64,000 bases of DNA from Allocoleopsis franciscana PCC 7113 (GTDB taxonomy: Bacteria > Cyanobacteriota > Cyanobacteriia > Cyanobacteriales > Coleofasciculaceae), in contig NC_019738.1 in NCBI RefSeq assembly GCF_000317515.1, forward strand, positions 7,094,001 through 7,158,000. The letters are read 5' to 3'. The notes below the pieces were generated by a model that searched no databases, had not been told where the DNA came from, and was given only the letters and a program-made list of their open reading frames with translations. Numbering within the stretch: position 1 is the stretch's first letter; each line of letters begins with the position of its first letter. This document shows positions 9,870-27,264 of this stretch, piece by piece. A program made the translations under genes and the position numbers.

Positions 9870-9954
9870 ACCCCCATTCCGCACCCTCAACTGTCACATG
9901 CGCGGCAAGAGTTAGTGGCAGCGGCTAAATTCCACAAATGTTAAGTAAAAATAC

Positions 9955-11232: not shown

Positions 11233-11782
11233 GCTCTTTGGTTAATTGTTCTAGTGCCTCGCTAATAACCTGCCGTTGTTGGGCATCGTAACCCCAGCGT
11301 TGGAGAAATGTTTGATAGCGGCCTTCTCCAGTTGCGGCACTTTCCTGTAAGGCAAGAGAACGTTCTCGTAGCTCAGGGAGTTTAAGCTGTTCTATGAGGT
11401 GGGTTGTCCGCGATCGCACTCGATCAGACCTTTGAGCCATATCTTCGTTGCCCTTGCGGCGATGAGTTACAGCTTGTGCGGCTGACATTGCCAAATTTTT
11501 CACCGAAAGTTCTGCCACAATATCAGGCGAGGATTGTAATGCCTGAATCACTTCAGGTGAGGGATGATCCGCTAACGTTCCCTCAGAAGTGAGGTAAGTG
11601 ACAAAAAAACCTCTGGCACCGTTCTCAGTTTTCACTAATTGGGCGATCGCATCAGAAACTTCTGATGTTGATAGTTCACCCGCCGCCATTTGGGACATTA
11701 AAGACTGGGTAAATGCGATCGCTTCTTCAAAGGTGACTGTTTCAGGAATATTCACGGGAGTTTTTATATCAGTTTGTGTCAC
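11225..11782 (-). CDS. hypothetical helical protein co-transcribed with sbcD
   Basis: 185 residues from a GTG at 11782, predicted soluble and almost all helical, with no signal peptide. Segments include FEEAIAFTQSLMSQMAAGEL, GARGFFVTYLTSEGTLADHP and SVKNLAMSAAQAVTHRRKGN. I do not recognise a family. Its 3' end overlaps the sbcD start by 8 bases, which implies translational coupling and a possible link to DNA-end processing. It is too short and lacks Walker motifs, so it is not an SbcC. It may be a regulatory or scaffolding partner. Confidence 0.75.
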   Translation of the reverse strand: MTQTDIKTPVNIPETVTFEEAIAFTQSLMSQMAAGELSTSEVSDAIAQLVKTENGARGFFVTYLTSEGTLADHPSPEVIQALQSSPDIVAELSVKNLAMSAAQAVTHRRKGNEDMAQRSDRVRSRTTHLIEQLKLPELRERSLALQESAATGEGRYQTFLQRWGYDAQQRQVISEALEQLTKEHD

Positions 11783-11887
11783 TCAATCTCTAATACTGTT
11801 GATGATACTCAATTGTCGCGACAATCTCTCTTTTTCAACCCATCTCTCACCATGAAGTAGGAAGCAACTGAGATTAGGGTGCAAAAA

Positions 11888-11929
11888 CTCTGCGCCCCTT
11901 TGCGTGACCCTTTGCGACCTCTGCGTTAA
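11888..11929. repeat. interspersed CTTTGCG-type cyanobacterial repeat
   Basis: A run built from near-repeats of CTCTGCG/CCTTTGCG spaced by 10-12 bases (CTCTGCGCCCCTTTGCGTG..., then TTTGCGACCTCTGCG). Similar strings are, from memory, scattered through many cyanobacterial intergenic regions. A related ACAGAGGACACAGAGG string lies at about 41268-41283. Function unknown. Confidence 0.5.
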
Positions 11930-11968
11930 AAAAATTAGTATTCTAATGCCCGATGAAATAACCACGTA

Positions 11969-12274
11969 TCAATAAACCTTCTGTCCTCGTATGAACTCCG
12001 GTCTGCCTTCTGCCTTTTGCCGATATAGGCTCAAAGCAATTTCTCGAAAACGTGCCTCCTTTGAGTTAGCCAATTGCTGTCCAGCTTCAAAGGATAGCTG
12101 GGGTAACAAATCCTGAATAATTACAGGGTTCAGTCGTCCGCTAATCTTGGCTTTATAAAATGTGCGGTCGATTTCCATCCCATAGTCCCGTAAAACTTCC
12201 TGCCAAGTTTGGTAGTGCAAGGGGTCAGTGTTTACGAGAGTACCATCCAGGTCAAAGAGAATTGCTTTGAGCAT
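11969..12274 (-). pseudogene. truncated HAD hydrolase (beta-phosphoglucomutase type)
   Basis: The first 75 residues are a good HAD start: FDLDGTLVNTDPLHYQTWQE with the nucleophile Asp (DxD motif), then a cap helix KISGRLNPVIIQDLLPQLS. After FREIALSLYRQKAEGRPEFI the frame ends at 101 residues, whereas the family has 210-240. The conserved Ser/Thr motif II, Lys motif III and DD motif IV are all missing, and I see no continuation in other frames on this strand down to 11783. The gene is most likely a 3'-deleted remnant; an N-terminal cap-only peptide would have no activity. Confidence 0.78.
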
Positions 12275-12383
12275 GTTCTGAACAATAAAATTGAGCTTTG
12301 TTTTATCAGAAAAGCCGACGATCTAAATAATAATTGTGCATGAGGGTACGGTTCGTTTCATTTTTTCATTTTAATGATGGTTT

Positions 12384-13163
12384 CTAGCGAAGCAACTGAG
12401 GATAAATCTGTCGCCATGCTAATACAGAAAAGACACTAATCCACAACAGCAACCACATTAATTCTAAGAACCAGTATCCCGGTAATCCTAAAGGCCAGCG
12501 CAACAGGTCAATGATGGACGCTAAAGGCAAAACTCCTGCTATATTACCCAGAACGGGTGGTAGTGTGGTACGAGGGAAGTAAGTTCCGCAGAGTGTAAAC
12601 ATGGGAACGATGAACAAGAAAATTGGTACATTAATTTGATCGATGGTTCGCACCGTTCCCGCCGTACACAATCCCATTACCGCAAAGAGTAAGCTTCCTA
12701 AAATCAGTATTGGCAACGATATGAGAAAATGCCAACCAGAGTAGAGTCCCCAAACAACAGCCACTAAACCGGTTAAAAGACCCGCGATTGTCCCTTTGGT
12801 AGCTGCCCATAGCCAATCCCCTAAGAAGACTTCTGTGAAACTTAAAGGTGCTGTTAGTAAAGCTTGCCAAGTTTTTTGATAACTTAGGCGGATAAAACTG
12901 CCAAATGCCCCTTCAAAGAAGGACTGAAATAGCACCCCAATTGCCATCATTCCCGGCGCAATAAATTTTAAATAGGGAATCGTTTGACCGTTGTAGGGTA
13001 CATCTCCCACAAGCGGGGTTAAACCATACCCAAAAGCCACCAGATAAAGCACAGGTTCTGAAATTGGCAGCAAACTATTGATAAGCCAAGTTTTTTGGTA
13101 AACCCTAGCATGTCGATGCCAAACTGAGTAGACTCCCCAAGGAGTTACAGAAATGCCTTTCAT
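12384..13163 (-). CDS. ABC-2 type permease, NodJ-like
   Basis: 259 residues with six predicted membrane spans at about 25-48, 60-85, 105-135, 140-165, 172-195 and 228-250. The pattern ISEPVLYLVAFGYGLTPLVG near the N-terminus and GTYFPRTTLPPVLGNIAGVL before the last helices match NodJ/ABC-2 exporters of lipo-oligosaccharides or drugs. The cognate ATPase lies 105 bp upstream on the same strand (13269-14210), so they form one export unit. The substrate is not indicated. Confidence 0.88.
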   Translation of the reverse strand: MKGISVTPWGVYSVWHRHARVYQKTWLINSLLPISEPVLYLVAFGYGLTPLVGDVPYNGQTIPYLKFIAPGMMAIGVLFQSFFEGAFGSFIRLSYQKTWQALLTAPLSFTEVFLGDWLWAATKGTIAGLLTGLVAVVWGLYSGWHFLISLPILILGSLLFAVMGLCTAGTVRTIDQINVPIFLFIVPMFTLCGTYFPRTTLPPVLGNIAGVLPLASIIDLLRWPLGLPGYWFLELMWLLLWISVFSVLAWRQIYPQLLR

Positions 13164-13268
13164 ATTAGGAAGTGTGAAGTAGGAAGTGTGAAATATGAAA
13201 GATGAAGTGTGAAACTAATTACTGGATTTCCCTTTGTTTAGGCTTAATCCTTGACACTTCATCCTTGA

Positions 13269-14210
13269 TTAAAGTGATGTTCCAGTCAGTCGTAAGAACA
13301 CATCTTCTAAATTAGTCCGCCGACGTGTCAGGCGTTCCGGTGCAGTAGCACTGAGTTGTTCCCAAATTGACTGCGGATTATTGACAGGTAATCCTATCAA
13401 GTAACTGGTACCAAAGGGACGATACCAAGTTCCTGCCTGAGTCGCTAGTTGCTGGAGAGTTTGTTCATCAATGCCCTCAATTTCAACCACTTCTCGACCC
13501 ACCGTGCGCTCAATTAATTCTTCTGGAGTGCCTTGGTCGATCGTTTTACCTTGCTGAAGTAAGATTAGGCGATCGCACAATCGTTGCGCTTCATCCATAT
13601 AGTGGGTAGTCAACAACACTCCGCAGCCACTTTGTTTGAGTTGGCTAACCAACTTCCAAAAGTCTTGCCTCGCATCCGGGTCAAGTCCAGTGGTTGGTTC
13701 ATCCAAAAACACCACTTGAGGATGGTTAATCAAAGCCCGTGCTAAAACTAAGCGCCGCTTCATGCCGCCAGACAACTCATCTATACGATTACTGCCATAA
13801 TCTTGCAGCGCTACCTGAGCGAGTAATTCACCCGCCCGATGGCGTGCGGCTTTGCCAGTGATGCGGTAATGATGGGCAAAGTAAACTAAGTTCTCAAAGA
13901 CCGTAAAATCTGGGTCGAGATTATCTTCTTGAGTGACAATTCCCATCGCAGCACGGGCAATACGACCTTGAACCTGTACCTGATGTTGCCCTAGTTGAAC
14001 AAACCCTCGACTGGGAATCACAGAACCATACAACATTCCCACTGTTGTTGTTTTCCCCGCACCATTAGGGCCAAGAAGACCTAGAATTTCTCCAGGATTG
14101 AGAGTAAAGTTAACGCCTTGAACCACCTGTTTTTGACCATAGGTTTTCCATAGGTCGTAGGCTGTCAGCGCCATGGGTTGGGTGATTGGGCGTGGAGATG
14201 CAAGTCTCAT
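13269..14210 (-). CDS. ABC transporter ATPase, NodI-like
   Basis: 313 residues. Walker A GPNGAGKTTT (about 49-58), signature ELSGGMKRRLVLARAL, Walker B VVFLDEPTTGLD and switch LLTTHYMDEAQRLCDR. The tail ends RRRTNLEDVFLRLTGTSL, the NodI/CcmA-type C-terminus. The N-terminal MRLASPRPITQP could be an artefact; ATG at 14174 (MALTAYDLWK) is an alternative start. It drives the NodJ-like permease encoded just downstream. About 45 % of positions look alike with the 4253-5104 ATPase, as expected for the subfamily. Confidence 0.9.
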   Translation of the reverse strand: MRLASPRPITQPMALTAYDLWKTYGQKQVVQGVNFTLNPGEILGLLGPNGAGKTTTVGMLYGSVIPSRGFVQLGQHQVQVQGRIARAAMGIVTQEDNLDPDFTVFENLVYFAHHYRITGKAARHRAGELLAQVALQDYGSNRIDELSGGMKRRLVLARALINHPQVVFLDEPTTGLDPDARQDFWKLVSQLKQSGCGVLLTTHYMDEAQRLCDRLILLQQGKTIDQGTPEELIERTVGREVVEIEGIDEQTLQQLATQAGTWYRPFGTSYLIGLPVNNPQSIWEQLSATAPERLTRRRTNLEDVFLRLTGTSL

Positions 14211-14626
14211 AGGTTTTTAGCTGTTAGCTCTCGGCTTTAAGCTTCTTTCAAGATCATACTACATAATGTAGTTGATTGTATATTGCCTGAATTAAAATCT
14301 CTGCTGAATGTGAAAATTGCCAGAGTTAAAGATCAAAATTACTGACAGGACATAGAAAGATAGCCCCCTTTCTCAAGGGGGCTTGTTCATGATGCGTAAG
14401 TCTTACCTAACCATACAATGGGTACTAAAGAACACACTTCATCCAATGGGTTCACCCAACTGGTGGATTGACAAAAACTTACTGCATTGACAACAAAGTT
14501 AGCGTCTGGGTTACATAAAAGGTTAGCTGATTGACAAGCACCGCTCACGGGTTAGGCAATCACCAGATAACACCAGACGCCACGTTTAATTAGCTTCGTT
14601 CCAGATTTTTCAGTTAGAGTTTGACC
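14211..14626. other. intergenic region with one hairpin, no gene seen
   Basis: 416 bp between two minus-strand genes. It holds the hairpin at 14362-14383 and otherwise AT-rich sequence with stops in all frames. No RNA gene or family was recognised. Confidence 0.5.
14362..14383 (-). terminator. hairpin terminator candidate for the 14627-15022 gene
   Basis: Perfect 9-bp stem: AGCCCCCTT at 14362-14370, loop TCTC, AAGGGGGCT at 14375-14383. On the minus strand it is followed by ATCTTTCT, a weak T-rich tail. It lies about 240 bases past the stop. Confidence 0.45.
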
Positions 14627-15022
14627 TTATTCCTTACCAGTGACTTTATTAACCAAGTCTTTTGCTCCTTCTAATATGCCGCTATCCTTGGCATTTTCTT
14701 TTTTGTAATCTTTCAAATCTTCTTCATAAATTTCTTCTAGACCTTGTTTGGGGTTGCTACTAACTTCTTCTGTTACTTCATCGTAAGACTCTTGCGGAGG
14801 TGCATCTGGAAGCCCTAGCCCCTCAGTTTGGGTGTAAGCGCGATTGACGCTCTTGCTTCCCGCTTGGCTAATAATGTGTTGTTGTACCTGTAAGGGTTGA
14901 CCCGCTAAAGCAGGTTGATTGGCAAAAATAAATAAACCTGAAACGCTCAATAAGCCCATTAAACCAAACACTAAAATACGTTTGCCTAAGGCTCCCCAAA
15001 CCGTAGAGAAAAGCTGCTGCAT
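14627..15022 (-). CDS. exported acidic small protein, unknown function
   Basis: 131 residues from ATG 15022. The upstream AAGGAG at 7-8 bases decides this start over an in-frame one at 15166. Residues 1-40 are a signal peptide (basic start, hydrophobic core RILVFGLMGLLSVSGLFIF, then NQPALAG with an AxA-like site). The mature part of about 90 residues is acidic and probably disordered (EEVSSNPKQGLEEIYEEDLK) and ends in a helix LEGAKDLVNKVTGKE. I do not know the family. Likely periplasmic or lumenal. Confidence 0.7.
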   Translation of the reverse strand: MQQLFSTVWGALGKRILVFGLMGLLSVSGLFIFANQPALAGQPLQVQQHIISQAGSKSVNRAYTQTEGLGLPDAPPQESYDEVTEEVSSNPKQGLEEIYEEDLKDYKKENAKDSGILEGAKDLVNKVTGKE

Positions 15023-15222
15023 ATAAAACTCCTTTTTTCGTAGGATTCTAAGATTCACAAAGAAAAATGACGAGCGACGCTGTCTTGAGGCTGAAAAACC
15101 CCAAAACCAAGCCCTGGAAAATCCTACGATTGTGGCAGTAACTATCTCTTCTGCCCAAAGATACATTCAAGTCATATCGATAGTTACAAATTTTTACGGC
15201 ATGAGGGAAAGCTAACTACTAA

Positions 15223-15663
15223 CTATAAGAGTGTTGGCTTCAACGCTTCCGGCTGCATCGTTTGTACAAAAGCATCCAGTACTAACTGAGGAATGGCTCG
15301 TGGTCGCATAGCCTTTGTGTCTACCCAAACCCACAAGGCCTCAGCGGTTACAAGTATTTGTTCCTCACCTTCCTGGCGGATTTCGTAACGCCGGATGGCA
15401 CGCGGCCCTCGTACTTGTTGCAGCCAAGTTGCGACTTCCAACGTATCACCCGCGACGGCAGGGCGGAGATACTCTATTTCTATTCGTCGCATGACAAACA
15501 CACCACCCAGTTCTTCGTAGCGCTTAGGACCGAACCCCAGAAACTCCGAATGCTCGATCGCCGCCTGCTCTAGATAGTGCTGATAAACTGCATTATTGAC
15601 ATGTCCTAAGGCATCCATTTCGTGATACCTAACCCGTAGTCTAGAGGTAAATTTCTGTGTCAT
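15223..15663 (-). CDS. acyl-CoA thioesterase, 4HBT hotdog family
   Basis: 146 residues. The active-site region RVRYHEMDALGHVNNAVYQHYLEQA (residues 10-34) with Asp in EMDALGHVNN is the 4-hydroxybenzoyl-CoA thioesterase motif. It is followed by the hotdog strand FVMRRIEIEYLRPAVAGDTL. It would hydrolyse acyl-CoA or aryl-CoA thioesters. In cyanobacteria one such enzyme acts on 1,4-dihydroxy-2-naphthoyl-CoA in phylloquinone synthesis, and a menH gene is also in this window, but no direct link can be shown. Confidence 0.85.
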   Translation of the reverse strand: MTQKFTSRLRVRYHEMDALGHVNNAVYQHYLEQAAIEHSEFLGFGPKRYEELGGVFVMRRIEIEYLRPAVAGDTLEVATWLQQVRGPRAIRRYEIRQEGEEQILVTAEALWVWVDTKAMRPRAIPQLVLDAFVQTMQPEALKPTLL

Positions 15664-15846
15664 TTGGCTAATATTTTAGAGACTCGGTTAGCTAGAAAGA
15701 AGCTCATTAAAGTTGCAGTCAACCACTCTCCTGACAGAGCGAGCCGGCTCAATTTAGGGCACAACAGACTGTGCCCCTATAGTAATTTTATTTTGTACCC
15801 ATCAGTCAGTAACTTCCGGTTGTTTGCAACAATCGTAGGACTATCG

Positions 15847-16287
15847 TTAGGTAGCTTTTACTAAAACTGAATCGCCTTCAATTTTGGCGATGTAAGTGGA
15901 CAACGATTTCTTCGCCGGCCCTTGGAGAACTTTGCCATCCAGACTAAATTCAGCTTTATGACAGGGACAGACAAAAGCTTTCTTATCGGCTTTCCAGTCC
16001 ACTGTACAGCCTCGGTGTGTACAAATAGGCTTAACTGCCGTAATCGTCTTTGGGTTGGCGGGGTTGCTGACGACAAGTACAGAACCTCCAGCAAACTGTT
16101 TATTGAGAAGTTGACCCTTTTGGTTTAACTCTGCAACAGTGCCAACCGACTGAAATCCATCAGCCCTTTTTGGCATCGTCGAGGATTGCGATTTTTCGGT
16201 TTTGGGAGAACAGGCTGCAAGGGCAACGGGTAAAGAACTGGCGAGTCCACCAATCCCCACCCACATTAAAAACTCACGACGGTTCAT
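15847..16287 (-). CDS. Rieske [2Fe-2S] protein with Tat/lipoprotein signal
   Basis: 146 residues. The N-terminus MNRREFLMWVGIGGLAS has a twin-arginine pattern and ends at LAAC, a lipobox, so the mature protein may be anchored at Cys25. The cluster motifs CTHRGC (about 89-94) and CPCHKAEF (about 108-115) supply two Cys and two His ligands. The tail GKVLQGPAKKSLSTY is the usual proline loop. It is shorter than PetC and lacks a real membrane helix, so it resembles the small soluble Rieske proteins of cyanobacteria. The electron partner is not visible; stand-alone gene. Confidence 0.87.
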   Translation of the reverse strand: MNRREFLMWVGIGGLASSLPVALAACSPKTEKSQSSTMPKRADGFQSVGTVAELNQKGQLLNKQFAGGSVLVVSNPANPKTITAVKPICTHRGCTVDWKADKKAFVCPCHKAEFSLDGKVLQGPAKKSLSTYIAKIEGDSVLVKAT

Positions 16288-16506
16288 AGACAGTGGTTCG
16301 TTATTTGCTGAAAAGCTCTCTTAAAATTAAGGAGAAGAAGTTTCCTCTATCCCCTCTCATCTTTCATAACTGTCGCTTTGGCAAAGTGTAAAGAGAATGG
16401 TCAAAGTTTCGCTCAAAAGGAAATTCCAGTCTGTACGATCACCCAAGAGGCATCAGGATTACTGATCGTTCTGATACCCTAAATCTACCAAACATTTAGG
16501 CAAAAA

Positions 16507-17091
16507 ATGAGTAGTGGGCTTTCCGTACACAGTTGTGTCATGATTTGTCCTGGCATCCATGAACCACAACTGACTCAGGATTTTTTAGAGGCATTGCGAC
16601 GTGACGAAACCGCTAATTTATTGAGTGGCGAGATTAAACAGGTTTTGATATTTCCGACTCAGGACTATCCCGCTTACTCCGCTATGCATATTTTAGAATT
16701 TTTGCAGCGTCATACCCGCCAAACAACGCCAGTCATTTTTATCAGTTTTAGTGCGGGTGTAGCGGGTGCCATTGGTGCCGCATGGGCGTGGGAAATGTTG
16801 GGCGGTAAGGTAAAAGCTTTTATGGCATTTGATGGCTGGGGTGTGCCTTTATACGGGAATTTTCCCATTTATCGGGTCAGCCATGATTACTTTACTCACT
16901 GGAGTTCAGCCCTATTAGGTGCTGGGGTCGAGAGTTTCTATGCTGATCCAGCCATTGAGCATCTGGACTTGTGGCGATCGCCTGATCGTTGCCTAGGTTG
17001 GTGGGTTGGGCGCACAGCCGCTAATCATACTGAACATAAAGAAAATACCACTGCCGCGCACTTTGTCAACCAAGTATTGCAGCTTGCTTGA
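16507..17091 (+). CDS. small alpha/beta-hydrolase-like hypothetical protein
   Basis: 194 residues. After a short start it reads VMICPGIHEP, then VLIFPTQDYPAYSAMHI, then FISFSAGVAGAIGAAW, which has a nucleophile-elbow pattern (SFSAG, G-less variant of GxSxG), and ends with DLWRSPDRCLGWWVG and HTEHKENTTAAHF. The His in that tail could complete a triad. Likely soluble. The family is a cyanobacterial hypothetical as far as I can tell; no substrate suggested. Confidence 0.7.
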   Translation: MSSGLSVHSCVMICPGIHEPQLTQDFLEALRRDETANLLSGEIKQVLIFPTQDYPAYSAMHILEFLQRHTRQTTPVIFISFSAGVAGAIGAAWAWEMLGGKVKAFMAFDGWGVPLYGNFPIYRVSHDYFTHWSSALLGAGVESFYADPAIEHLDLWRSPDRCLGWWVGRTAANHTEHKENTTAAHFVNQVLQLA

Positions 17092-17416
17092 GTCTCCACA
17101 TAAAAACCCCGCCGCAGGCAAGGGCGGGGCAACTGTCAATTTTTCGTCAACCAGAACTTATCATTAGCGGCACAAAAGGATTGTCTGCTCACAGATAGAT
17201 CTTTATGAGCTAGCATCGGACTCCGCTACGCTACGTCCGGGGCTTCTGACGTTTCGACGCCTTAACCCTTCCTGGATAAACCCCCATAGTGCAGGATGGC
17301 GGAAGTAACTCACCCGTTGAGCGTGGGGAGGGAAGTTTGGAAAAGCCTGGGAGAAAGCTTTTCGTTGAGGATAAGATAACGGCTAACTTTCTCTCTCATC
17401 TCAACTAGGTCGATTC
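17092..17416. other. intergenic region upstream of the CHASE2 cyclase
   Basis: 325 bp holding a GC hairpin after the hydrolase-like gene and a short palindrome CGGAC...GTCCG near 17218-17240. No further gene or RNA was recognised. The cyclase promoter should lie here. Confidence 0.4.
17107..17129 (+). terminator. GC-rich hairpin after the 16507-17091 gene
   Basis: CCCCGCC at 17107-17113 pairs with GGCGGGG at 17123-17129, 15 bases past the stop. A run of T's follows only after about 10 bases, so termination strength is uncertain. Confidence 0.55.
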
Positions 17417-19663
17417 ATGATTATGTGGGCAAAGCTGAGACAACAACTATGGCAATGGCGCGGTGTCTTAATTGCCGCTCCCAGTGTAGCCGCATTACTA
17501 ATTGGGTTGCGCTCGGCTGGATTGCTGCAAGGGTTAGAATTGGCAGCGTTAGACCAATTTTTTCGGCTACGCTCAAAAGAATCTGTTGACTCCCGTATTG
17601 TTATTGTTGGAATTAATGAAGCAGATATCCAAAAGGCAGGGCATTGGCCTCTATCTGATGCAAAGCTTGCAAAATTACTAGAAACACTCAAACAGCAACA
17701 GCCGAGAGCGATTGGTCTTGACCTTTATCGTGATTTACCAGTAGAACCCGGTCATCAGGAGTTGATTAAGGTTTTTGCCTCAACTCCGAATTTAATTGGT
17801 ATTCAGAAGGTAGTGGGGAATTCGTATGGGTTAGCCGTTAATCCACCTCCAACATTGAGCAAATTCGGTCAGGTTGGGGCTAATGATTTTGTGGTGGATA
17901 CCGATGGGAAAATTCGTCGCAGTCTACTAACTCTGAAGGATAAGTCGGGAAAGACAATCCCAAGTTTAGCAACCCGGTTAGCCTTGACTTATCTGGAGAC
18001 TAAAGGGATTAAACTCGAAATTATTGACGAGACCAAACAGAAGTATAAGCTTGGCAAAGCGACATTTACTCCATTTAATGCCCATGATGGGGGTTATTTC
18101 TTTGCAGATGCAGGCGGATATCAGATACTGTCTAATTTTCGCAATTTGCGGCAGGGTTTCCGTACCCTATCGATGACCGATGTTTTGCAGGGGCGGGTGC
18201 CAGTCAATTCAGTGCGCGATCGCATTGTCTTGATTGGAGTAACTGGAGAGAGTGTTAGGGACAGCTTTTACACGCCCTATAGTAGCAGGCAGGTTAGTCA
18301 AGCGGCGACTAGCTTTGCTGGCGTTGAAATTCATGCCGATGTAGTTAGCCAGATTTTGAGTGCAGCGTTAGAAGGTCGCCCTCTGATTAAAGTTTGGTCT
18401 GAACCGATGGAGTGGTTATGGATTTTTGGTTGGGCAGTGGTGGGTGCGACGTTGAGCTGGATACGGCGATATCGGGATGGTGTAACCCAGCGATCGCCTT
18501 TAACCGTTGTCAGTATTTTCTTCGCAGGAGGTGGCTTGGTCTATGGCAATTACTTGGCTTTTCTTCAGGGATGGTGGATTCCCGTTGTACCGCCTGTTCT
18601 GGCTTTAGCCGGGTCTACGATCGCAATTTCCAGTTATGTCGCCTACACAGCAACCGGGATGCGTCAAACGTTTGGCCGTTATCTCACGGATGAAGTGGTT
18701 GCCAATCTTCTGGAGACACCGGAAGGATTACAACTCGGTGGTGAAAAACGAAAAGTTACGATATTGATGTCGGATTTAAGGGGGTTTTCCGCGTTATCCG
18801 AGCGAGTATCGTCAGAAACCGCCGTGGAGGTGATCAACTTCTATTTGGAAGTGATGACGGAAGTGATTAGCGATTATCACGGCACGATTAATGAGATTAT
18901 GGGCGATGGCATTCTGGTAATGTTCGGTGCACCGATCGCTAGAGAAGACGACTCGCAACGTGCGATCGCTTGTGCTATAGCGATGCAGTTGGCAATGGAT
19001 AAAGTGAACAATAAGGCCCAACAAATGAACCTACCCTCACTGGACATGGGCATTGGCATTAATACAGGTGAAGTCTTAGTGGGGAATATTGGGTCAAAAA
19101 AACGCGCTAAGTATACAGTGATGGGAAGTCCTGTTAACTTGGCGGCTCGAATTGAATCTTATACAGTAGGCGGGCAAATCTTGGTGTCTAAAGACACTCT
19201 CAAAGAAGTTGGTTCCATTGTCAGAGTGGATGAAACATTGCAAATACAGCCTAAAGGATTCCAAGAACCCATCACTGTTTATGAAATTGGCGGCATTGGC
19301 GGTGAGTTCAACTTATTTGTCCCGAAAAAAGAAGAGGTACTAGTCGTTCTCAGTCAAGCAATCCCTGTACAGTATACGGTTTTACAGGGGAAATATATGG
19401 GAGAGAAGGTATTTCAGGGGACGTTAGTTAAGTTATCGACCGGTTCAGCCCAGATATGTTCTGAATATCCGGTGGAATTGTTGAGCAATCTCAAGATGAA
19501 TTTAGTGACTGGGATGGAAAAGGCAAGGGGATTGGGGGATATCTATGCCAAAGTGGTGGAAATATCAGCGGATAGTCCCACTAATTTCTGTGTTCGTTTC
19601 ACGGGTATTCCCGCAGAGGTGGCAGCGTTGCTTTATTATCTGCGTGACTCCTCTTCAAATTGA
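17417..19663 (+). CDS. CHASE2 sensor class III adenylate/guanylate cyclase with C-terminal PilZ-like domain
   Basis: 748 residues. TM1 is at about 16-31, an extracytoplasmic CHASE2 domain at about 45-325 (VIVGINEADIQKAGHWPLSD, RDRIVLIGVTGESVRDSFYT), and three more membrane helices at about 332-415. The class III cyclase domain runs about 445-625, with metal Asp in LMSDLRGFS (453) and IMGDGILVMFG (497), and the transition-state Asn and Arg in GSPVNLAARIE (574, 578). A further module of about 100 residues (645-748: IPVQYTVLQGKYMGEKVFQG, LVKLSTGSAQI, FCVRFTGIPAEV) looks like a PilZ fold without a clear RxxxR motif. It makes cAMP or cGMP in response to an external signal. Next to the exoprotein/CHAT genes. 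Confidence 0.9.
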   Translation: MIMWAKLRQQLWQWRGVLIAAPSVAALLIGLRSAGLLQGLELAALDQFFRLRSKESVDSRIVIVGINEADIQKAGHWPLSDAKLAKLLETLKQQQPRAIGLDLYRDLPVEPGHQELIKVFASTPNLIGIQKVVGNSYGLAVNPPPTLSKFGQVGANDFVVDTDGKIRRSLLTLKDKSGKTIPSLATRLALTYLETKGIKLEIIDETKQKYKLGKATFTPFNAHDGGYFFADAGGYQILSNFRNLRQGFRTLSMTDVLQGRVPVNSVRDRIVLIGVTGESVRDSFYTPYSSRQVSQAATSFAGVEIHADVVSQILSAALEGRPLIKVWSEPMEWLWIFGWAVVGATLSWIRRYRDGVTQRSPLTVVSIFFAGGGLVYGNYLAFLQGWWIPVVPPVLALAGSTIAISSYVAYTATGMRQTFGRYLTDEVVANLLETPEGLQLGGEKRKVTILMSDLRGFSALSERVSSETAVEVINFYLEVMTEVISDYHGTINEIMGDGILVMFGAPIAREDDSQRAIACAIAMQLAMDKVNNKAQQMNLPSLDMGIGINTGEVLVGNIGSKKRAKYTVMGSPVNLAARIESYTVGGQILVSKDTLKEVGSIVRVDETLQIQPKGFQEPITVYEIGGIGGEFNLFVPKKEEVLVVLSQAIPVQYTVLQGKYMGEKVFQGTLVKLSTGSAQICSEYPVELLSNLKMNLVTGMEKARGLGDIYAKVVEISADSPTNFCVRFTGIPAEVAALLYYLRDSSSN

Positions 19664-20170
19664 ATTCTGTAAGGGTAGGATGTAGAAAAGAGCGACAACG
19701 CTCTGTGAAAAGTTTTTTTCCTAGTCAGCAAGATTGGTAAGTTTGATATAATCTCGTAACATCTACCTCTTGGCACTGGGAGAAATCCAATGCGCCGCCC
19801 TATCTTCTTGTGGGCTATTTGGCAACGGCTAGTTCTGCCTAAGCCCCATTATTCCGGATAATACGCTCTCAGTGAATTCTGTCATGATGCCGGAATGCAC
19901 GGTTTGTACGAATACAGGGGAAACAGTACAGGGTAAACCTGTTCCCCAGTTTCAGGAAGTTTTCGATGCCAATGGGAGGTGAGGCGTTTTTTAATAAGAC
20001 AGGGCAGATTGAGACGATTTTCAGTCGAGTGACAGGGAGTTCGGTCTCTAATATTGATGGATTGCTTGGGGCTAATGGGACGGCAAGTTTGTTCGTGCTT
20101 AATCTCATTGGGTTTATTTTTTAGTCCGAATGAGCAGTTAACTATTTATATATTGCCAAGGAGGCAAACG
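19664..20170. other. cyclase downstream region containing a haemagglutinin relic
   Basis: 507 bp. A 23-codon frame at 19790-19861 is not supported. From about 19930 the sequence is a degenerate filamentous-haemagglutinin N-terminal domain (annotated separately). The last 20 bases carry a strong AAGGAGG ribosome site for the small Cys-rich peptide gene. Confidence 0.6.
19930..20124 (+). pseudogene. relic of a filamentous haemagglutinin N-terminal (TPS) domain
   Basis: With one extra base near 19960 ignored, the sequence reads [51 protein letters not shown] and stops with TAG at 20122-20124. That is the core of the haemagglutination-activity domain (compare the intact exoprotein: FHSFKEFNIDPG, ILSRVTG, GSADLFLLNPHGIIFG). 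The family's NPNGI is here NLIGF. No signal peptide precedes it and nothing continues after the stop. It is a broken relative of the next gene, not a near-identical copy. Confidence 0.82.
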
Positions 20171-20320
20171 ATGAAAGGCACAATCATGGTCGGGTTAGCT
20201 TTCGCTCTACTATTAGCGACTGTATCTAGCTCTACTGCTGCATCTAGCTCTACTGCTGCTACGGCTTGTACATGTCTAAATATAGACGGTGTAAAAATAT
20301 GTCTAGGTTGTAATAACTAG
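20171..20320 (+). CDS. secreted Cys-rich micropeptide (49 residues)
   Basis: ATG 20171 is preceded by AAGGAGG at about 8 bases, one of the strongest ribosome sites in the window. Residues 1-20 (MKGTIMVGLAFALLLATVSS) form a clear signal peptide, followed by a Ser/Ala-rich spacer STAASSSTAATA that comes from an 18-bp tandem duplication, and a 19-residue tail TACTCLNIDGVKICLGCNN with four Cys (CxC...CxxC). Cleavage may follow an AxA site, or the first Cys could be lipidated (weak lipobox ATAC). It sits 53 bp upstream of the exoprotein gene on the same strand, so co-transcription is likely. No family recognised. Confidence 0.65.
   Translation: MKGTIMVGLAFALLLATVSSSTAASSSTAATACTCLNIDGVKICLGCNN
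20224..20259. repeat. perfect 18-bp tandem duplication inside the micropeptide gene
   Basis: The unit ATCTAGCTCTACTGCTGC occurs twice in a row (20224-20241, 20242-20259), encoding Ser-Ser-Ser-Thr-Ala-Ala twice. It keeps the frame and lengthens the spacer between signal peptide and Cys-rich tail. Confidence 0.9.
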
Positions 20321-20373
20321 CGTAACCATAAACGAGCAGAAGAAATTGTCTCTCTGCTCTTTGCAGTTTTTTA

Positions 20374-22698
20374 ATGAAACAAGACATTCGTCTACTTGGT
20401 CTTAGTAGCAGTATCTGCTTTTATTGCCTAACGGCGACCGCTCCCACTCAAGCTCAATCTAACCAACCTGTTCAGTTAGATGGAAGTACAAGCACTTCAA
20501 GCATAAGAGGCGATTGCTCTATCAGTTGTACCATTACAGGTCAACATATAGGAGGAAACAATCTCTTCCACAGCTTTAAGGAATTTAACATCGATCCTGG
20601 CGCAACAGTTATATTTGATACTCCTGCTGGAGTCACTAGAATTCTGAGTCGGGTGACAGGAAATGACTACTCCCACATCCAAGGAACGCTGCAAGTATTG
20701 GGCAGTGCTGACCTGTTTTTGCTCAATCCTCACGGCATTATCTTCGGTTCTAATGCCCAATTGAACATTAATGGTTCTTTTGTGGCAAGTACGGCGAGTA
20801 GCTTGATTTTTAATGATGGTTCTCTGTTCAGCGCCACTGACACAACGCCACCATTACTGACTGTAAGCGTACCTGTCGGTCTGCAATTCGGGGCAACTCC
20901 TGGCAGCATTACCCATCAATCCGGAGACTTGCAAGTAAAAACTGGTCAGACTCTAGCACTAGTAGGAGGGGATGTAAATCTGTTGGGGGGAAACCTGAGG
21001 GCACCAGGTGGACGGATTGAGCTAGGAAGTGTTGCTGCTAACAGTCTCGTTAGCTTAACTCCAAACCCAAGCACTAGAGGTTGGGTCTTGGGATATGAGA
21101 GTGTGCAGAAATTCAAAAATATTCAGCTATCCCAAGGAGCTGTTGTTAGTACAACTAATATAGTCAGTGGGGACATCCAGTTGTATGGAAGACAAATCAC
21201 AATTGCTGATGGTTCTCAGGTGGGAGGATTTACAATTCAAGGAACGTCAGCAACTAAAGGCGGAACTTTAGTAATACACGCCGATGACTCTTTGGAAGTA
21301 AAGGGTACAGCTTTGAACGATCCGACGAAAGCTAGCGCACTGTTTACTGGAACATTTGGTGCCGGACAGGCGGGTGACATATCAATTAAAGCAAAGCAAC
21401 TGTTCGTTGATAGTGGAGGAACAGTAATAGCATCTACTTTCAAAAATGGACAAGGAGGGAATATAACCTTAGATATCGAGCAATCTGTAAACGTGATCGG
21501 TTCTGACAGTAAGATAATCACTCAAGCTGAGCCTGGGAGTACTGGAGGTGCTGGTGGACAATTGCAGATTACTACAGAGAAATTAATGATTCGTGATGGA
21601 GGGCAAATAGCAACCTCTACCTTTGGTTCAGGCAATGGAGGAACTTTGCTTGTAGATGCCTCTGAAGTGGAAGTAAGCGGTCGATCACAAGATGGTCATT
21701 TACCTAGTGGCTTATTTGCACAAAGCCTCAACGATCAAACAAGAGGTAATGGAGGAAACTTAATCATTAATACGAATCGCTTAGTCGTTGAAGGTGGTGC
21801 AAACATATCAGTTGCTTCTCGTCGAGGTAGTCAAGGTAATGCGGGGAGGCTAGAAGTAAATGCCTCAAAGGTAGAAGTGATTGGTACTGGACTTGATCAG
21901 GACGGTAATATTGTTCCCAGTTCGTTGTTAGCGTCAACCGCTTCCGGTCAAGGAGGCAACATCACGATCAATTTATCAAACTACTTGTTGCTGAGTAACG
22001 GCAGCCAGATCTCTACCAGTGCCGAGCGTGAGGGCAATGGTGGACAAATTAGAATTAATCAGGGATTTGTTGTTGCAGCGCCCACAAACTCAAACAGTGA
22101 CATCATTGCCAATGCCATTAATGGACGGGCGGGAGGTATTATAATCAATAGTGAGAGTGTACTTGGACTAATAGTTTGGACGCCAGAAAAAATAGCAAAG
22201 GAATTTGCTACCGATTCCAATCAATTCCAACCACGTAACCAACCCAGCAACGATATTACCGCCTTTTCACAGAATCCCGCTCTCAGTGGCACAATCACTA
22301 TCACTACGCCGAAAGTTGACCCCAGCCAGGGATTAACCCAATTACCAGAGGAACCTGTTGACGCTACCCAACAAATTTCCCAAGCCTGTTCAGGAGACCA
22401 GAAAGATGTCGTAGGCGAGAACAAATTCGTCATCACTGGACGGGGCGGTTTGCCCTCTAGTCCCGCTGATTTGTTCAGTACAGACCAAGTCCTGACCGAT
22501 TTAGGCACACCAGTCGCCCCTACCGCCATTCGCACCCGTGGTAGAACAATTACACCCCCCGCTCCTTCCCCAGCTCTCCTTGTAGAAGCGCAAGGCTGGT
22601 TTATCGATGGTAATGGGGTAGTTCACCTAGTTGCTCAAGGCTCTAACGCTACACCCCAAAGCCATTGGCAACCACCTGTGCAGTGTCCGAGTTCCTGA
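20374..22698 (+). CDS. filamentous haemagglutinin-type two-partner secretion exoprotein
   Basis: 774 residues. Signal peptide at about 1-28 ending PTQAQ. The TPS domain at about 30-165 contains GGNNLFHSFKEFNI, ILSRVTGNDYSHIQGTLQ and LFLLNPHGIIFGSNAQLNIN. A long Gly/Asn-rich beta-helix follows, with repeats such as GGQIATSTFGSGNGG, GNGGNLIINTNR and GQGGNITI, then a C-terminal segment with one Cys (ISQACSGD) and GRGGLPSSPADLF, seen in this cyanobacterial exoprotein group. It would be exported through an outer-membrane TpsB pore, which is not encoded in this window. Upstream: the micropeptide; downstream convergent: DUF928 and CHAT. Confidence 0.9.
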   Translation: MKQDIRLLGLSSSICFYCLTATAPTQAQSNQPVQLDGSTSTSSIRGDCSISCTITGQHIGGNNLFHSFKEFNIDPGATVIFDTPAGVTRILSRVTGNDYSHIQGTLQVLGSADLFLLNPHGIIFGSNAQLNINGSFVASTASSLIFNDGSLFSATDTTPPLLTVSVPVGLQFGATPGSITHQSGDLQVKTGQTLALVGGDVNLLGGNLRAPGGRIELGSVAANSLVSLTPNPSTRGWVLGYESVQKFKNIQLSQGAVVSTTNIVSGDIQLYGRQITIADGSQVGGFTIQGTSATKGGTLVIHADDSLEVKGTALNDPTKASALFTGTFGAGQAGDISIKAKQLFVDSGGTVIASTFKNGQGGNITLDIEQSVNVIGSDSKIITQAEPGSTGGAGGQLQITTEKLMIRDGGQIATSTFGSGNGGTLLVDASEVEVSGRSQDGHLPSGLFAQSLNDQTRGNGGNLIINTNRLVVEGGANISVASRRGSQGNAGRLEVNASKVEVIGTGLDQDGNIVPSSLLASTASGQGGNITINLSNYLLLSNGSQISTSAEREGNGGQIRINQGFVVAAPTNSNSDIIANAINGRAGGIIINSESVLGLIVWTPEKIAKEFATDSNQFQPRNQPSNDITAFSQNPALSGTITITTPKVDPSQGLTQLPEEPVDATQQISQACSGDQKDVVGENKFVITGRGGLPSSPADLFSTDQVLTDLGTPVAPTAIRTRGRTITPPAPSPALLVEAQGWFIDGNGVVHLVAQGSNATPQSHWQPPVQCPSS

Positions 22699-22777
22699 TA
22701 TAGCAAAAGGCAGAGGGCAGGGCTGGTTTTAACAGATTTAGGTGTTTATGCCTTATTGTCGTGCCCCGACTCTCTCA

Positions 22778-23578
22778 CTAGTTCTTCAACGGTGCCTTGG
22801 CGATCGCACCTAACCCCGCATCCTTTAACAAATTTTCCCAAGCTGATGCCACTTGTGGGTCATTGGGTTGAGCTTTTCGTAGTGCTGCCAGTGCTGCCAC
22901 TGTATCAAACCAGACACCATTCTTGGCATATAGAGCCACCTTGTCTAGAGGCTTTGCCTGCTCGATTTGACTCAAGGTAGAATTAGGTTGGACGCGTCTG
23001 ACCGAACCCTCTACAAACGAATCTTCAGGTGCTCCCGACCCACACACCATCGAAACCAACCATTTGTAATCCTTCCCCATCTCCAACTCAGGTGCATTAG
23101 CCGGTAGCTGAATGCTGACAATGCCCGGAGTGCCTATCAAGTTTACAGTCGTTTGATATATTCCCTTACCATCTCGTTCCAATGTTAGTTCCATTGCTGT
23201 AGCAGAAGTTTGCGGGACGTAAACCAGAAAAGTCGGACGAGGTGATACGGTTAATTGTGGGTCAGTAACGGGCGATCGCAACAAAGGAGTCAGCAGTTGG
23301 TCTAGAGACTTCACTTCAAGAGTAGATTGTGCTGAAGATATTCGATCCTGCGAACATCTCCCGTCGTTTCGCCTGCCACCACCTACCGTAGTGGTAGGTG
23401 CGGGTTGATCTTTACGAGGTTCAAACGTCACCTGTTTTAGCCTAGCTAGGGGAGATGTTTGAGTTGGGGTTTTAGCCTGTGCCTGTGCTGTTGTTAAAGA
23501 GCCAGACGTTATAACAAGTTCTAATAACAGAGGTGCTGAGAGTAGTAGAAAATATCCGGGAAGTTTGGTCCGAATCAT
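22778..23578 (-). CDS. DUF928 family exported protein
   Basis: 266 residues. Signal peptide at about 1-33 (LLLSAPLLLELVITSGSLTT, then AQAQA). Residues 115-205 hold the DUF928 core: SPRPTFLVYVPQTSATAMEL, then TTVNLIGTPGIVSIQLPA and GKDYKWLVSMVCG, followed by SFVEGSVRRV. Beta-rich, periplasmic. The family is limited to cyanobacteria and is commonly found near CHAT and haemagglutinin genes. It is the downstream gene of the CHAT protein on the same strand (260-bp gap). Function unknown. Confidence 0.87.
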   Translation of the reverse strand: MIRTKLPGYFLLLSAPLLLELVITSGSLTTAQAQAKTPTQTSPLARLKQVTFEPRKDQPAPTTTVGGGRRNDGRCSQDRISSAQSTLEVKSLDQLLTPLLRSPVTDPQLTVSPRPTFLVYVPQTSATAMELTLERDGKGIYQTTVNLIGTPGIVSIQLPANAPELEMGKDYKWLVSMVCGSGAPEDSFVEGSVRRVQPNSTLSQIEQAKPLDKVALYAKNGVWFDTVAALAALRKAQPNDPQVASAWENLLKDAGLGAIAKAPLKN

Positions 23579-23838
23579 AATCTTGGAATCTTAAAGATAA
23601 CTTATGAAACTACTATGGACGCACCCCAGCCACATCTCAGTGATAGCCACAGAGTTGAGTCGTGACGTAAATCTGGATTAAGGATGATTCCAGTATAATT
23701 TAGCTGTGATACATGTACTTCATTCATTAATGAGGCAGCAACACCCTCGTAGGGAATTGATCTCAGCGTAGAGTGAACATTGCGAAGTCAACGCAAAGGC
23801 TAGTTAAATTCGGTAGAGGGTGCTCACTCCTAAATCTG

Positions 23839-26496
23839 TTAAAGCCAATTCCCGATCAGTACAAAGGGTGCCCAGTAAAAGGGATGTCTGAATTTAGGCT
23901 GCTTGAGTAACGCCAGTTGGGCATCGCGTAGGGCTTGGGCTTTGGTTACCTGGAGCTGAGCTAGCGCCTGGTAAAATGCCATCATAAACTCTGAAGTAGA
24001 TTGGTCATCCACAGGCCAAAGCGTTGCCAGAGTACTGCGTGCCCCCGATCGCACCGCTACACCCGCTAGTCCCAAAGCCGCCCGATTGTCGCCAGAGGCA
24101 GTTTGACAAGCACTCAGTACCAGCAATTCAATGGGTTTGCGATCGCTCTGTTCTCTCGCCTGGAGTACTCCCCCCAACTGTTTGACATCGATGCGTTCAT
24201 CCCAGGCCAGAATAAAAGTCTTGTCCGCCTCAGAGCTAAATTGACCGTGAGTTGCTAGATGTACCACAGGGAAAGGAGCTGCCTTAATCTGGGATTGGAG
24301 AGCCGTACTGGTAAATTGCTGATTGAGAAGTACCTCCGTGGGGAGTTTGGATTGGATCTGCACCACCTCAGACTCTACACCCGGTAGTGCCGAAAAACCC
24401 TGCCTTGCCTCGCTTAATCCACCAACCAGTACCTTGATTGGTTGGCGAGTTAAGGCTTGGGGTTCGAGTAACTGTAGACTTGGGGTGAGGGCAACACCGT
24501 ACTTTTCTACCAAGTACTGCTGTCCATCGTAGAGTGCTGCCATTGGTAAATTTTTTAGGGAACCATCCAAGGCAAACACCAAGGTTTTGATACCACTGGC
24601 TGCTAAATCAGATTCAGCCGGTCGAACTAGCCAATCATAAACCTTTTGGAAAAGCGGCAAGCGCTCAGCATCTAGAGCGGTGCGCCTCAAAGAGCGTCGC
24701 GCCTTGTTGAGAATATCGTCCAACTCACTTTGGGGTATAGCAGTGGTATAGTGACGCAGAGGTTGATTGGGTAAGGAGAGAATGACTTCTAAACGGTCAG
24801 GTAAAATAATCGGATAAATCACTGCCGCTTGAGAGTCAACCCGGTCAATTAATTCAGGTTGAGCTGTTAAACATGCCTCTCGAAAGAAGTTATCTAATTC
24901 TGCCAACTGAAGGGATTCAATCACCTCACGCGCTAGTTTAAGATTTTCCTGGCTAATCTCTCCTCCCTCAGTCCGTTGCAGCAGCAGCCCTACAAACTGC
25001 CGATAGACGGGTTCTACACTCTCCCGAAACGAGAATTGCAAATCGAGATTAGTTGCAACTAAGTCTTTGCGTAGGGAATTAAGCGTATTAATTGCTTCTT
25101 TGTAAGCAGTAATGGCGCTATTATAGGTTGAACTATTTGCCTTTCCCTCTCCAGCTTGGGCTTTAAGCAACCGTCCCAACTGCCACTGCCACTGGTAAGC
25201 AATATCTGGTGCATTGCTAGATTGAGCTAAGAGTAATGCTTTTTCTGTTAGTTTCTGAGCCTCCGACCATTGCTGATTTTGCTCGTAAACCTGACTGAGA
25301 TAGCCAAGAGCGTAGGCTTGGGCCCGTTGATCTTGCAATTCCTTTGCTTGCTCAATCGTTGCCGCTAGGATTTGAGCCGCAGCTTGCGGTGTAGGTACTT
25401 CTCCACTCCCAACTCCCGACTCCCGACTCCACAGCTTCATTAAACTTTGGATCAAGTTAATCCGGGCGTAGATGGATGTTCGTGTCGCTGGTAAATTGGC
25501 GAGTTGAGGCAGGATTTGCGAGGATAATTTCTCAGCTTCTGCCCATTTTTCAGTATCGATTAATAAGCGCAGTTGATTTAATTGTGCCTGGAGGGTTGTT
25601 GTAGGAGAGGTAGAGGTAGTAATTGCCTGCTGATAGTACTTAAGGGCTTGCTCAAATTGCTGCAAAGCGTAAGCGGTATTACCTAAACTCATCAAAGCCG
25701 CAGTAATTGCTGGGGGAGATTGCAATCGTTGGGAAATCGCTAAACTTTGCTCTAGCACCTGCTGAGATTGTTTCAAATCCCCTACTAAGCGCAAAGCCTC
25801 ACCAAAGCTCAACAATCCAGCCGCTTTAATATCAGAGTCAGGCTGGTTTTGCAGGATTTGATTGGCTTGTTCTAAGGTATCCTTGACTCGCTGATAGAAG
25901 CCTAGCGCTCTCAAAGCTTGAGCCTGGTTAATTAAACTGCGAACCACCCCAGTTTTATCTCCAACTTGCTGATAAGTTTCGGTGGCTTTTTGCCAAGTGG
26001 CAAGTGCCTGTTGTGCCTGTCCTTGAGCAAGTTGGAGTTTACCTTGAGTATTTAGTGCCTGAGCGAAGATTTTCAGGCGATTGGTGTTACTGTCCTTGGC
26101 TTGGAAGATTTGTAAACTGGTCGTAATCGCTTCATTGGCTTCAGGTAGTCGCCCTAACTGGTGATAGGCTAGAGCGAGATTGCTCAATGCTATCGCTTGA
26201 TTGATGCCGTCTTCACGAGCCGCAAATGCATCTGCGGCCTGCTTCCAGACCATGACCGCCGCTGTATATTGACCGGATTGGTAATGTTGAAGACCCTCTT
26301 GCATCAACTGAGAGGCATTTTGAACTGAGGACTGAACGGCTGACGCATCTGGGACAGCTATATTGACCCTAGCCATTCCCGCTTCCTTGGGGTAGCCTCC
26401 CCATGCCAACGAGAGGCTCAAAAGGGTGGTAATAGTCCCTAAGCCAAGATACTTTAGAACGTTCTTGAACCTCTTGTTGAGATTGATAGGAGTCAT
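23839..26496 (-). CDS. TPR-CHAT caspase-like protein
   Basis: 885 residues from ATG 26496. An N-terminal hydrophobic segment (about 12-33, signal or anchor: GLGTITTLLSLSLAWGG) is followed by TPR repeats at about 60-490. The C-terminal CHAT domain at about 590-885 contains VVHLATHGQF with His750 and LLVLSACQTASGD with Cys797, the catalytic dyad of this caspase/separase-related family, then GVRSGARSTLATLW-like text and the closing HPFYWAPFVLIGNW. It is a predicted cysteine protease acting at the envelope. Clustered with DUF928 and the exoprotein, it may process or control the secreted protein. Confidence 0.92.
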   Translation of the reverse strand: MTPINLNKRFKNVLKYLGLGTITTLLSLSLAWGGYPKEAGMARVNIAVPDASAVQSSVQNASQLMQEGLQHYQSGQYTAAVMVWKQAADAFAAREDGINQAIALSNLALAYHQLGRLPEANEAITTSLQIFQAKDSNTNRLKIFAQALNTQGKLQLAQGQAQQALATWQKATETYQQVGDKTGVVRSLINQAQALRALGFYQRVKDTLEQANQILQNQPDSDIKAAGLLSFGEALRLVGDLKQSQQVLEQSLAISQRLQSPPAITAALMSLGNTAYALQQFEQALKYYQQAITTSTSPTTTLQAQLNQLRLLIDTEKWAEAEKLSSQILPQLANLPATRTSIYARINLIQSLMKLWSRESGVGSGEVPTPQAAAQILAATIEQAKELQDQRAQAYALGYLSQVYEQNQQWSEAQKLTEKALLLAQSSNAPDIAYQWQWQLGRLLKAQAGEGKANSSTYNSAITAYKEAINTLNSLRKDLVATNLDLQFSFRESVEPVYRQFVGLLLQRTEGGEISQENLKLAREVIESLQLAELDNFFREACLTAQPELIDRVDSQAAVIYPIILPDRLEVILSLPNQPLRHYTTAIPQSELDDILNKARRSLRRTALDAERLPLFQKVYDWLVRPAESDLAASGIKTLVFALDGSLKNLPMAALYDGQQYLVEKYGVALTPSLQLLEPQALTRQPIKVLVGGLSEARQGFSALPGVESEVVQIQSKLPTEVLLNQQFTSTALQSQIKAAPFPVVHLATHGQFSSEADKTFILAWDERIDVKQLGGVLQAREQSDRKPIELLVLSACQTASGDNRAALGLAGVAVRSGARSTLATLWPVDDQSTSEFMMAFYQALAQLQVTKAQALRDAQLALLKQPKFRHPFYWAPFVLIGNWL

Positions 26497-26676
26497 GAGC
26501 TTCACGCGCAACGAAAGGATGAAAACGTATCTTCTCTGGCTCCTGACTCCTGACTCCTAATTTCCAGATGAGTCAGGTAGGTTTTTCCTTACTCCCAAGA
26601 ATAAAAGTTTCTTACACAAAAGACTAGGGTGTAGCTCTTTAACCTAAACTCTTAATACGAACTTTACGGGTTGCAG

Positions 26677-27264
26677 ATGATTGTCACATTAGTCAGCTTA
26701 AAGGGAGGCGTAGGGAAAACCACCTCCGCTATCCATATTGCCGCCTATCTCCAAAAGAAAGGTCCCACTCTCTTGATTGATGCCGACAAAAATCGGTCTG
26801 CATTAGTTTGGGATCGGGAAAGCCAGCTTCCCTTTAAGGTGGTGAGTGAGGCGGCTGCGCCCAAGTTTGTGAAACAGCATCAATACATTGTGATTGACAC
26901 CCAAGCCCGTCCCTCTCATGAAGAATTGAAGGATTTGGCGGAAGGGTGTGACTTGATGATTCTGCCCACCACTCCCAAGGCGCTTGATATGGATGCCCTG
27001 ACGAAGACGGTGGAACTCCTAGATGGGTTGAACGCCAAATTCAAAATCCTCTTGGCTCAAATCCCTCCTCGTAGTTCGGTGGCGCGTAATATTAGGAAGT
27101 CTCTAGAAGAGTCGGGTTTAGATGTGTTTAAAGCCGAAATCCCCCGGCTGGTTGCCTTTGAACGCGCACCCATGAAGGGGGTGTTGGTAAAAGATTATCC
27201 CGATGCGAGATCGCAAACGGCCTGGGAAAGTTACGAAGCCTTAGGAAAAGAAATTCTGCCTTGA
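26677..27264 (+). CDS. orphan ParA-type ATPase
   Basis: 195 residues from ATG 26677; a TTG two codons upstream is the other choice. The deviant Walker A LKGGVGKTTSA (about 8-18), the Walker A' LIDADKNRSALVW and the Walker B VIDTQARP are present. There is no ParB gene or N-terminal HTH nearby. Short ParA proteins of this type position chromosomes, plasmids or carboxysome-like cargo by making gradients on the nucleoid. The tail ENPYDARSQTAWESYE-like region is typical of this short class. The cargo cannot be told from context. Confidence 0.88.
   Translation: MIVTLVSLKGGVGKTTSAIHIAAYLQKKGPTLLIDADKNRSALVWDRESQLPFKVVSEAAAPKFVKQHQYIVIDTQARPSHEELKDLAEGCDLMILPTTPKALDMDALTKTVELLDGLNAKFKILLAQIPPRSSVARNIRKSLEESGLDVFKAEIPRLVAFERAPMKGVLVKDYPDARSQTAWESYEALGKEILP

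Follow-up and report, generated by a model that had tools for sequence, protein, structure and literature searches.

The window analyzed here, a 64,000-nucleotide stretch at positions 7094001 to 7158000 of contig C1 of the Allocoleopsis franciscana PCC 7113 genome, carries four neighboring genes for signaling and envelope proteins. The first, on the forward strand, encodes a 748-aa receptor (17417..19663) in which Pfam found both a CHASE2 domain, above the Pfam cutoff (E value of 3e-76, 256.9 bits), and a class III adenylate/guanylate cyclase domain (89.5 bits). Both metal Asp motifs of the cyclase are present (SDLRGF and MGDGI); at the positions that bear on cAMP versus cGMP specificity, its purine-site Lys is replaced by Glu (NEIMGD), relatives varying between Lys and Glu, and a Thr occupies the other purine position. 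Downstream on the same strand lies the gene for a 774-aa TPS-pathway exoprotein (20374..22698) with a signal-like N terminus, a TPS domain (E value of 1e-60), a further match to adhes_NPXG, and a C-terminal VEAQGW..dgnG.v.LvAq motif; an N-terminal TPS domain together with an export-type signal is what marks a TpsA protein. The reverse strand encodes a 266-aa protein with a signal-like N terminus, whose sole Pfam match is DUF928 (22778..23578; E value of 5e-56), and a TPR-CHAT protein, also with a signal-like N terminus (23839..26496; CHAT E value of 1e-63), which starts at an ATG at 26496 or, alternatively, at a TTG at 26511. Pfam thus placed each of these genes where a first-pass annotation had reported it.

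That annotation had described the DUF928, CHAT, and TPS proteins as exported or envelope located, and judged by N-terminal hydrophobicity only, an export-type hydrophobic N-terminal segment is indeed common in all three families (94% of DUF928, 82% of CHAT, and 80% of TPS family members, compared with 39% of other ORFs). The caspase-type His/Cys dyad that it had seen in the CHAT protein is also kept (HLATHG and SACQT), as it is in 78 of 78 CHAT domains aligned at both positions; CHAT is a putative cysteine protease. Nine TPS-CHAT fusions are encoded in this genome, and they place the putative protease on the exported protein itself. No TpsB gene adjoins the TPS gene within the block, as had been pointed out; the genome search returned four ShlB/TpsB genes for 36 TPS matches, and TpsB is present in related cassettes (L171 and the plasmid locus L243), in line with the suggestion that the pore is shared. 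Such cassettes have TPS-domain exoproteins in common with two-partner secretion of the FHA/FhaC type, and ShlB/TpsB adjoins some of them. They differ from it in that the window copy is without a TpsB alongside and that TPS occurs together with CHAT and a CHASE2 sensor.

Between the receptor and exoprotein genes is a 49-codon forward-strand ORF (20171..20320), which had been proposed as a Cys-rich secreted component. The ORF does exist, with a good SD sequence (AAGGAGG), a signal-like N terminus, and a C-x-C-x9-C-x2-C pattern, but it had no relative at an E value below 0.009 in 389 genomes (best nonself E value of 0.009). Its start lies 29 bp downstream of a degraded second TPS domain (19912..20142, forward strand; profile positions 25 to 105, with one TGA and one TAG inside), which the first-pass annotation had not recorded and which suggests that an exoprotein was lost or recombined. 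Since the micropeptide is an orphan that lies beside a TPS pseudogene, we rejected it as part of the module. Over 56 bp, the remnant matches the TPS gene of L061, a further cassette of this genome, at 80% identity. A hairpin (GAGCAGA..TCTGCTC) followed by a T-run separates the small ORF from the TPS gene (20334..20372, forward strand) and is a possible terminator, with a folding z score of only -1.55; promoter and terminator scans gave matches at chance level only.

The stretch from 17205 to 26596 is missing from the syntenic site of a genome of the same genus (G001, contig C16), a clean site at which the sequences to the left of 17205 and to the right of ~26597 are joined with ~20 to 30 bp between them. 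Given that these flanks are nearly joined, the interval picked out by the first-pass annotation represents almost exactly one indel, and the block was gained or lost as one unit. Terminal repeats and a target duplication were sought at the block ends, and none were found. The flanking genes are not neighbors in the other family members examined, which does not by itself distinguish gain here from loss there. Two close relatives of the cassette, L159 and L161, share its outer arrangement, in which DUF928 and CHAT lie on the strand opposite the CHASE2-cyclase gene, and the window flanks had no clear match in either of them beyond short, weak stretches. Bordering the variable block on its right, a gene for a ParA-like ATPase (26671-27264) is 99% identical in G001; in some other family members, its relatives are only 41 to 65% identical.

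The families in the block also gather elsewhere in the PCC 7113 genome, which contains 16 CHASE2, 36 TPS, and 54 CHAT matches along with 17 DUF928 genes by count, at least 15 of which were located. Against a null in which one gene set was rotated relative to the other along the genome, DUF928 lay within 10 kb of 11 of the 16 CHASE2 genes (0.53 expected, maximum of 4), CHAT lay within 10 kb of 11 (2.05 expected), and TPS lay within 10 kb of 9 (1.3 expected). This co-clustering persisted when fusion proteins were left out, with the DUF928-CHAT association weaker (P = 0.0004). For CHASE2 proteins of this genome with a GGDEF (L068) or protein kinase (L066) output, the surrounding region fetched contained no DUF928 gene, and TPS and CHAT genes also occur commonly in parts of the genome that have no CHASE2.

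Across the phylum, 40 DUF928-anchored regions contained CHASE2 in 27 cases, CHAT in 13, TPS in 12, and all four families in 7, compared with 0, 1, 0, and 0, respectively, in 20 control regions taken at fixed, round-number positions. Since the DUF928 alignment contained no conserved stretch for a genome scan, CHASE2 was used as the anchor instead; the resulting 79 named loci, a sample enriched for CHASE2 close to that of the window, included DUF928 in 63, CHAT in 41, TPS in 31, and all four in 22. DUF928 and CHASE2 are the core of this arrangement, a minimal pair that is usually adjacent on one strand: the next gene to CHASE2 on the same strand was DUF928 in 48 of 59 cases, mostly across a gap of <200 bp, and the two were the only members present at 14 of the 40 DUF928 loci and 27 of the 79 CHASE2 loci. 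CHAT and TPS join in ~30 to 50% of loci and TpsB sometimes does, and 10 of the 40 DUF928 loci are without any partner family. The proposal that CHASE2, DUF928, TPS, and CHAT are functionally linked is therefore strongly supported by recurrence in the genome, in the phylum, and on plasmids as well as by the indel of the block as a unit, and for CHASE2 and DUF928 in particular, the co-occurrence that it called for was pronounced.

Gene order is repeated across cyanobacterial orders and classes. DUF928 is mostly upstream of CHASE2 genes of the cyclase type (55 upstream, 12 downstream), and it is downstream of the DUF1822-linked type whenever the two are adjacent (12 of 13). The latter type usually has a weakly sigma-factor-like gene in front, and CHAT was fused to CHASE2 in both members scanned. 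At L065 (4813-11410), L067 (4608-9663), and several other loci, the row consists of the weakly sigma-factor-like gene, DUF1822, the CHASE2 protein, and DUF928 downstream; the CHAT-CHASE2 fusions of L065 and L067 keep the FAGHS and NSC motifs. The clearest cassette with a TpsB gene is L171, in which TpsB, TPS, CHAT, DUF928, and the CHASE2 cyclase form a five-gene row on one strand. Plasmid copies occur at L242 and L243, with the row TpsB-CHASE2-TPS-CHAT on a Pseudanabaena plasmid. Given that DUF928 and CHASE2 lie on opposite strands with TPS in between, the window copy is a rearranged one. A WD40-CHASE2-DUF928 gene array was previously described in Nostoc punctiforme, with CHASE2 beside DUF928 in one of seven cyanobacteria surveyed (PMC5587647). 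It shares this neighborhood with the cassette but is presented there as lineage specific, and the passages of that paper that describe it do not deal with TPS, CHAT, recurrence, or fold.

When tree distances were compared by a Mantel-type test over 35 units containing all four families, DUF928 diverged in step with CHASE2 (rho = 0.55) and CHAT (rho = 0.54) but not with TPS (rho = 0.02), and 13 paralogous DUF928-CHASE2 pairs within this genome gave a rho value of 0.51 (P = 0.002), although shared ancestry of whole cassettes would give the same signal. This pattern fits a signaling core whose exoprotein can be exchanged.

The AlphaFold model of the window DUF928 protein has a mean pLDDT of 77, with block values mostly of 87 to 96 from residue 111 to the end. 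It contains an FN3/Ig-like sandwich (residues 95 to 198) with a tyrosine corner (L-x-x-G-x-x-Y), followed by four TPR-like helices (residues 202 to 253). The best solved match was the C-terminal domain of MtxA (Foldseek E value of 6.6e-4; VIA-align Z score of 9.3 over 148 residues), a modest lead over the FN3-like folds that crowd behind it at Z scores of 5.8 to 6.8. MtxA is described as an Ig-like and TPR protein of Magnetospirillum with a conserved CHASE2-adenylate cyclase gene downstream of its own gene, and its deletion gave no phenotype (PMC4439547). According to that description, MtxA and DUF928 share a signal peptide, an Ig-like (FN3-type) domain, TPR helices, and an adjoining CHASE2-cyclase gene; for DUF928, this adjacency holds at the family level, the window copy lying in the same block on the opposite strand. 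MtxA differs in having a histidine corner instead of the usual tyrosine corner of DUF928 and an extra N-terminal beta region, and the passages of PMC4439547 on the MtxA system do not include TPS or CHAT.

A second parallel is the Burkholderia BiofilmReg operon, in which the gene for a LysM/FecR protein lies upstream of a CHASE2 histidine kinase gene and which has been tied to biofilm (PMC5192318). We confirmed a FecR gene directly in front of a CHASE2 gene on Paraburkholderia, Cupriavidus, and Microvirga plasmids; the two reading frames overlap in Paraburkholderia and Microvirga, and FecR directly precedes CHASE2 in Cupriavidus. The operon resembles the cassette in that the gene for an exported partner lies directly upstream of the receptor gene and in that Ig-like stretches are repeated in the longer FecR proteins, and it differs in having FecR and LysM domains where the cassette protein has its DUF928 region and, in Burkholderia, a kinase output. 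DUF928 had no sequence similarity to the proteobacterial FecR proteins (hhalign probability of 0.1), and a profile search of PDB sequences with DUF928 linked it to no PDB chain, MtxA not being listed. The parallel with FecR, for which sequence thus offers no link, rests on export, Ig-like fold, and gene position, shared features which argue that these proteins may work alike without proving a common origin.

We read this stretch of genes, with moderate confidence, as one copy of a recurrent envelope-signaling cassette in which CHASE2 and DUF928 would form a two-protein sensor that works from the outside in, with CHAT and TPS as extras. More tentatively, DUF928 may serve CHASE2 receptors throughout the Cyanobacteria as their periplasmic ligand-binding subunit, the counterpart of MtxA and FecR-Ig proteins, coupling TPS and CHAT to cyclic-nucleotide, TIR, or CHAT outputs in a form of surface sensing that has spread as a cassette. 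In the periplasm, DUF928 would bind the ectodomain of CHASE2, a role likewise expected of MtxA or FecR-Ig proteins for the CHASE2 proteins of Proteobacteria, and the exported, putative TPR-CHAT cysteine protease and the TPS surface exoprotein, with or without a TpsB pore, would be frequent additional parts. Surface contact or damage would alter the exoprotein or the way CHAT has processed it; whether the exoprotein is present, bound, or CHAT-cleaved would be relayed to CHASE2 by DUF928, and the cyclase would then raise cyclic nucleotide levels inside the cell. What CHASE2 domains sense is unknown (PMC10581220), and a model of the CHASE2 ectodomain had no significant match in the PDB, which does not by itself show a new fold. 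A Leptolyngbya CHASE2-GGDEF protein is reported to suppress motility and biofilm (PMC10581220); this finding and the one on the BiofilmReg operon (PMC5192318) were made on receptors related to the one here and not on this cassette.

The output domains of CHASE2 proteins across the loci include cyclase, TIR, CHAT, and others. The L063 receptor (16377-19577) carries three TIR domains and adjoins DUF928, CHAT, and two TPS genes. Two ORFs, of 265 and 493 aa, come after the cyclase gene in L197 and L224; those of L197 encode an Apyc1-like phosphodiesterase for cyclic nucleotides and an MscS channel that includes a cNMP-binding domain, and the L197 row (6774-17808) runs on one strand from the CHASE2 cyclase through these two genes to TPS and CHAT. 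With such neighbors, a channel rather than Crp may be the target of the cyclic nucleotide. In L159, the cassette most closely related to the one in the window, a gene for a caspase (EACC1-associated type) with a GUN4 domain (12267-14000) lies between the CHASE2 cyclase and TPS genes.

These outputs raise the alternative of a conflict or cell death module, in which CHASE2 receptors would detect an attack or a damaged envelope and set off dormancy or a lethal response, with TPS and CHAT as an exported weapon or alarm. The three TIR domains of L063, the CHAT outputs of L065 and L067, the caspase-GUN4 gene of L159, the phosphodiesterase and channel genes of L197, and a CHASE2 match annotated as a TIR protein in a Kovacikia plasmid record all favor it. 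Since the window copy is without these extra effectors, many loci consist of DUF928 and a CHASE2 cyclase only, and no toxin or immunity gene was identified, we consider this alternative unlikely as a general account, although the TIR and CHAT outputs and the L159 caspase-GUN4 gene leave room for a role in stress or cell death.

The first-pass annotation had instead proposed that the signal runs from the inside out, with the cyclase inducing secretion of the exoprotein and CHAT and DUF928 maturing or gating it. The TPS, CHAT, and DUF928 proteins are of the exported type and often occur together, and TpsB joins some cassettes, as this proposal would have it. However, the expected Crp-type sites were not found near the cassette genes, the sole near match in the window lying at 1893, where chance alone predicts two in the window; DUF928 occurred with CHASE2 alone at 14 of 40 loci but with TPS in the absence of CHASE2 at only 3 of 40; and its divergence tracks CHASE2 and CHAT, not TPS. 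Given that DUF928 mostly adjoins the sensor gene, often on the same strand and in the same row as TPS and CHAT, an input role fits better, and we regard the inside-out direction as quite improbable. The earlier interpretation thus stands in its functional link among the four families and not in its micropeptide component, its Crp-regulated output, or its output-first direction. Least probable of all is a loose neighborhood, in which envelope genes would collect in shared variable islands and not be functionally coupled; while the block varies between genomes of one genus, TPS tree distances do not follow DUF928, and transposase genes lie near the plasmid copy L242, this would sit poorly with the strong adjacency, short gaps, shared strand, and order repeated across orders and classes and with the co-divergence among paralogues of one genome.

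We judge the cassette to be a new and widespread variant of CHASE2 signaling with a specific candidate partner, rather than a categorically new system. CHASE2 proteins are widespread receptors, and a conserved, exported Ig-TPR neighbor that occurs in Cyanobacteria (DUF928) and Magnetospirillum (MtxA) is a concrete, testable candidate for their partner on the outside. The cassette also ties caspase-like CHAT proteases and two-partner secretion to signaling in multicellular cyanobacteria, a combination for which we found no earlier description in the literature beyond one local note; among the papers searched, none joined CHAT with hemagglutinin in cyanobacteria, and DUF928 turned up in a single one. 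The stand-alone TPS exoproteins, for their part, share a C-terminal tail, VEAQGW..d.nG.v.LvAq, which is present in 44 of 73 of them compared with 7 of 790 other ORFs and which lies at 22570-22698 in the window; it is possibly an anchoring or recognition tail.
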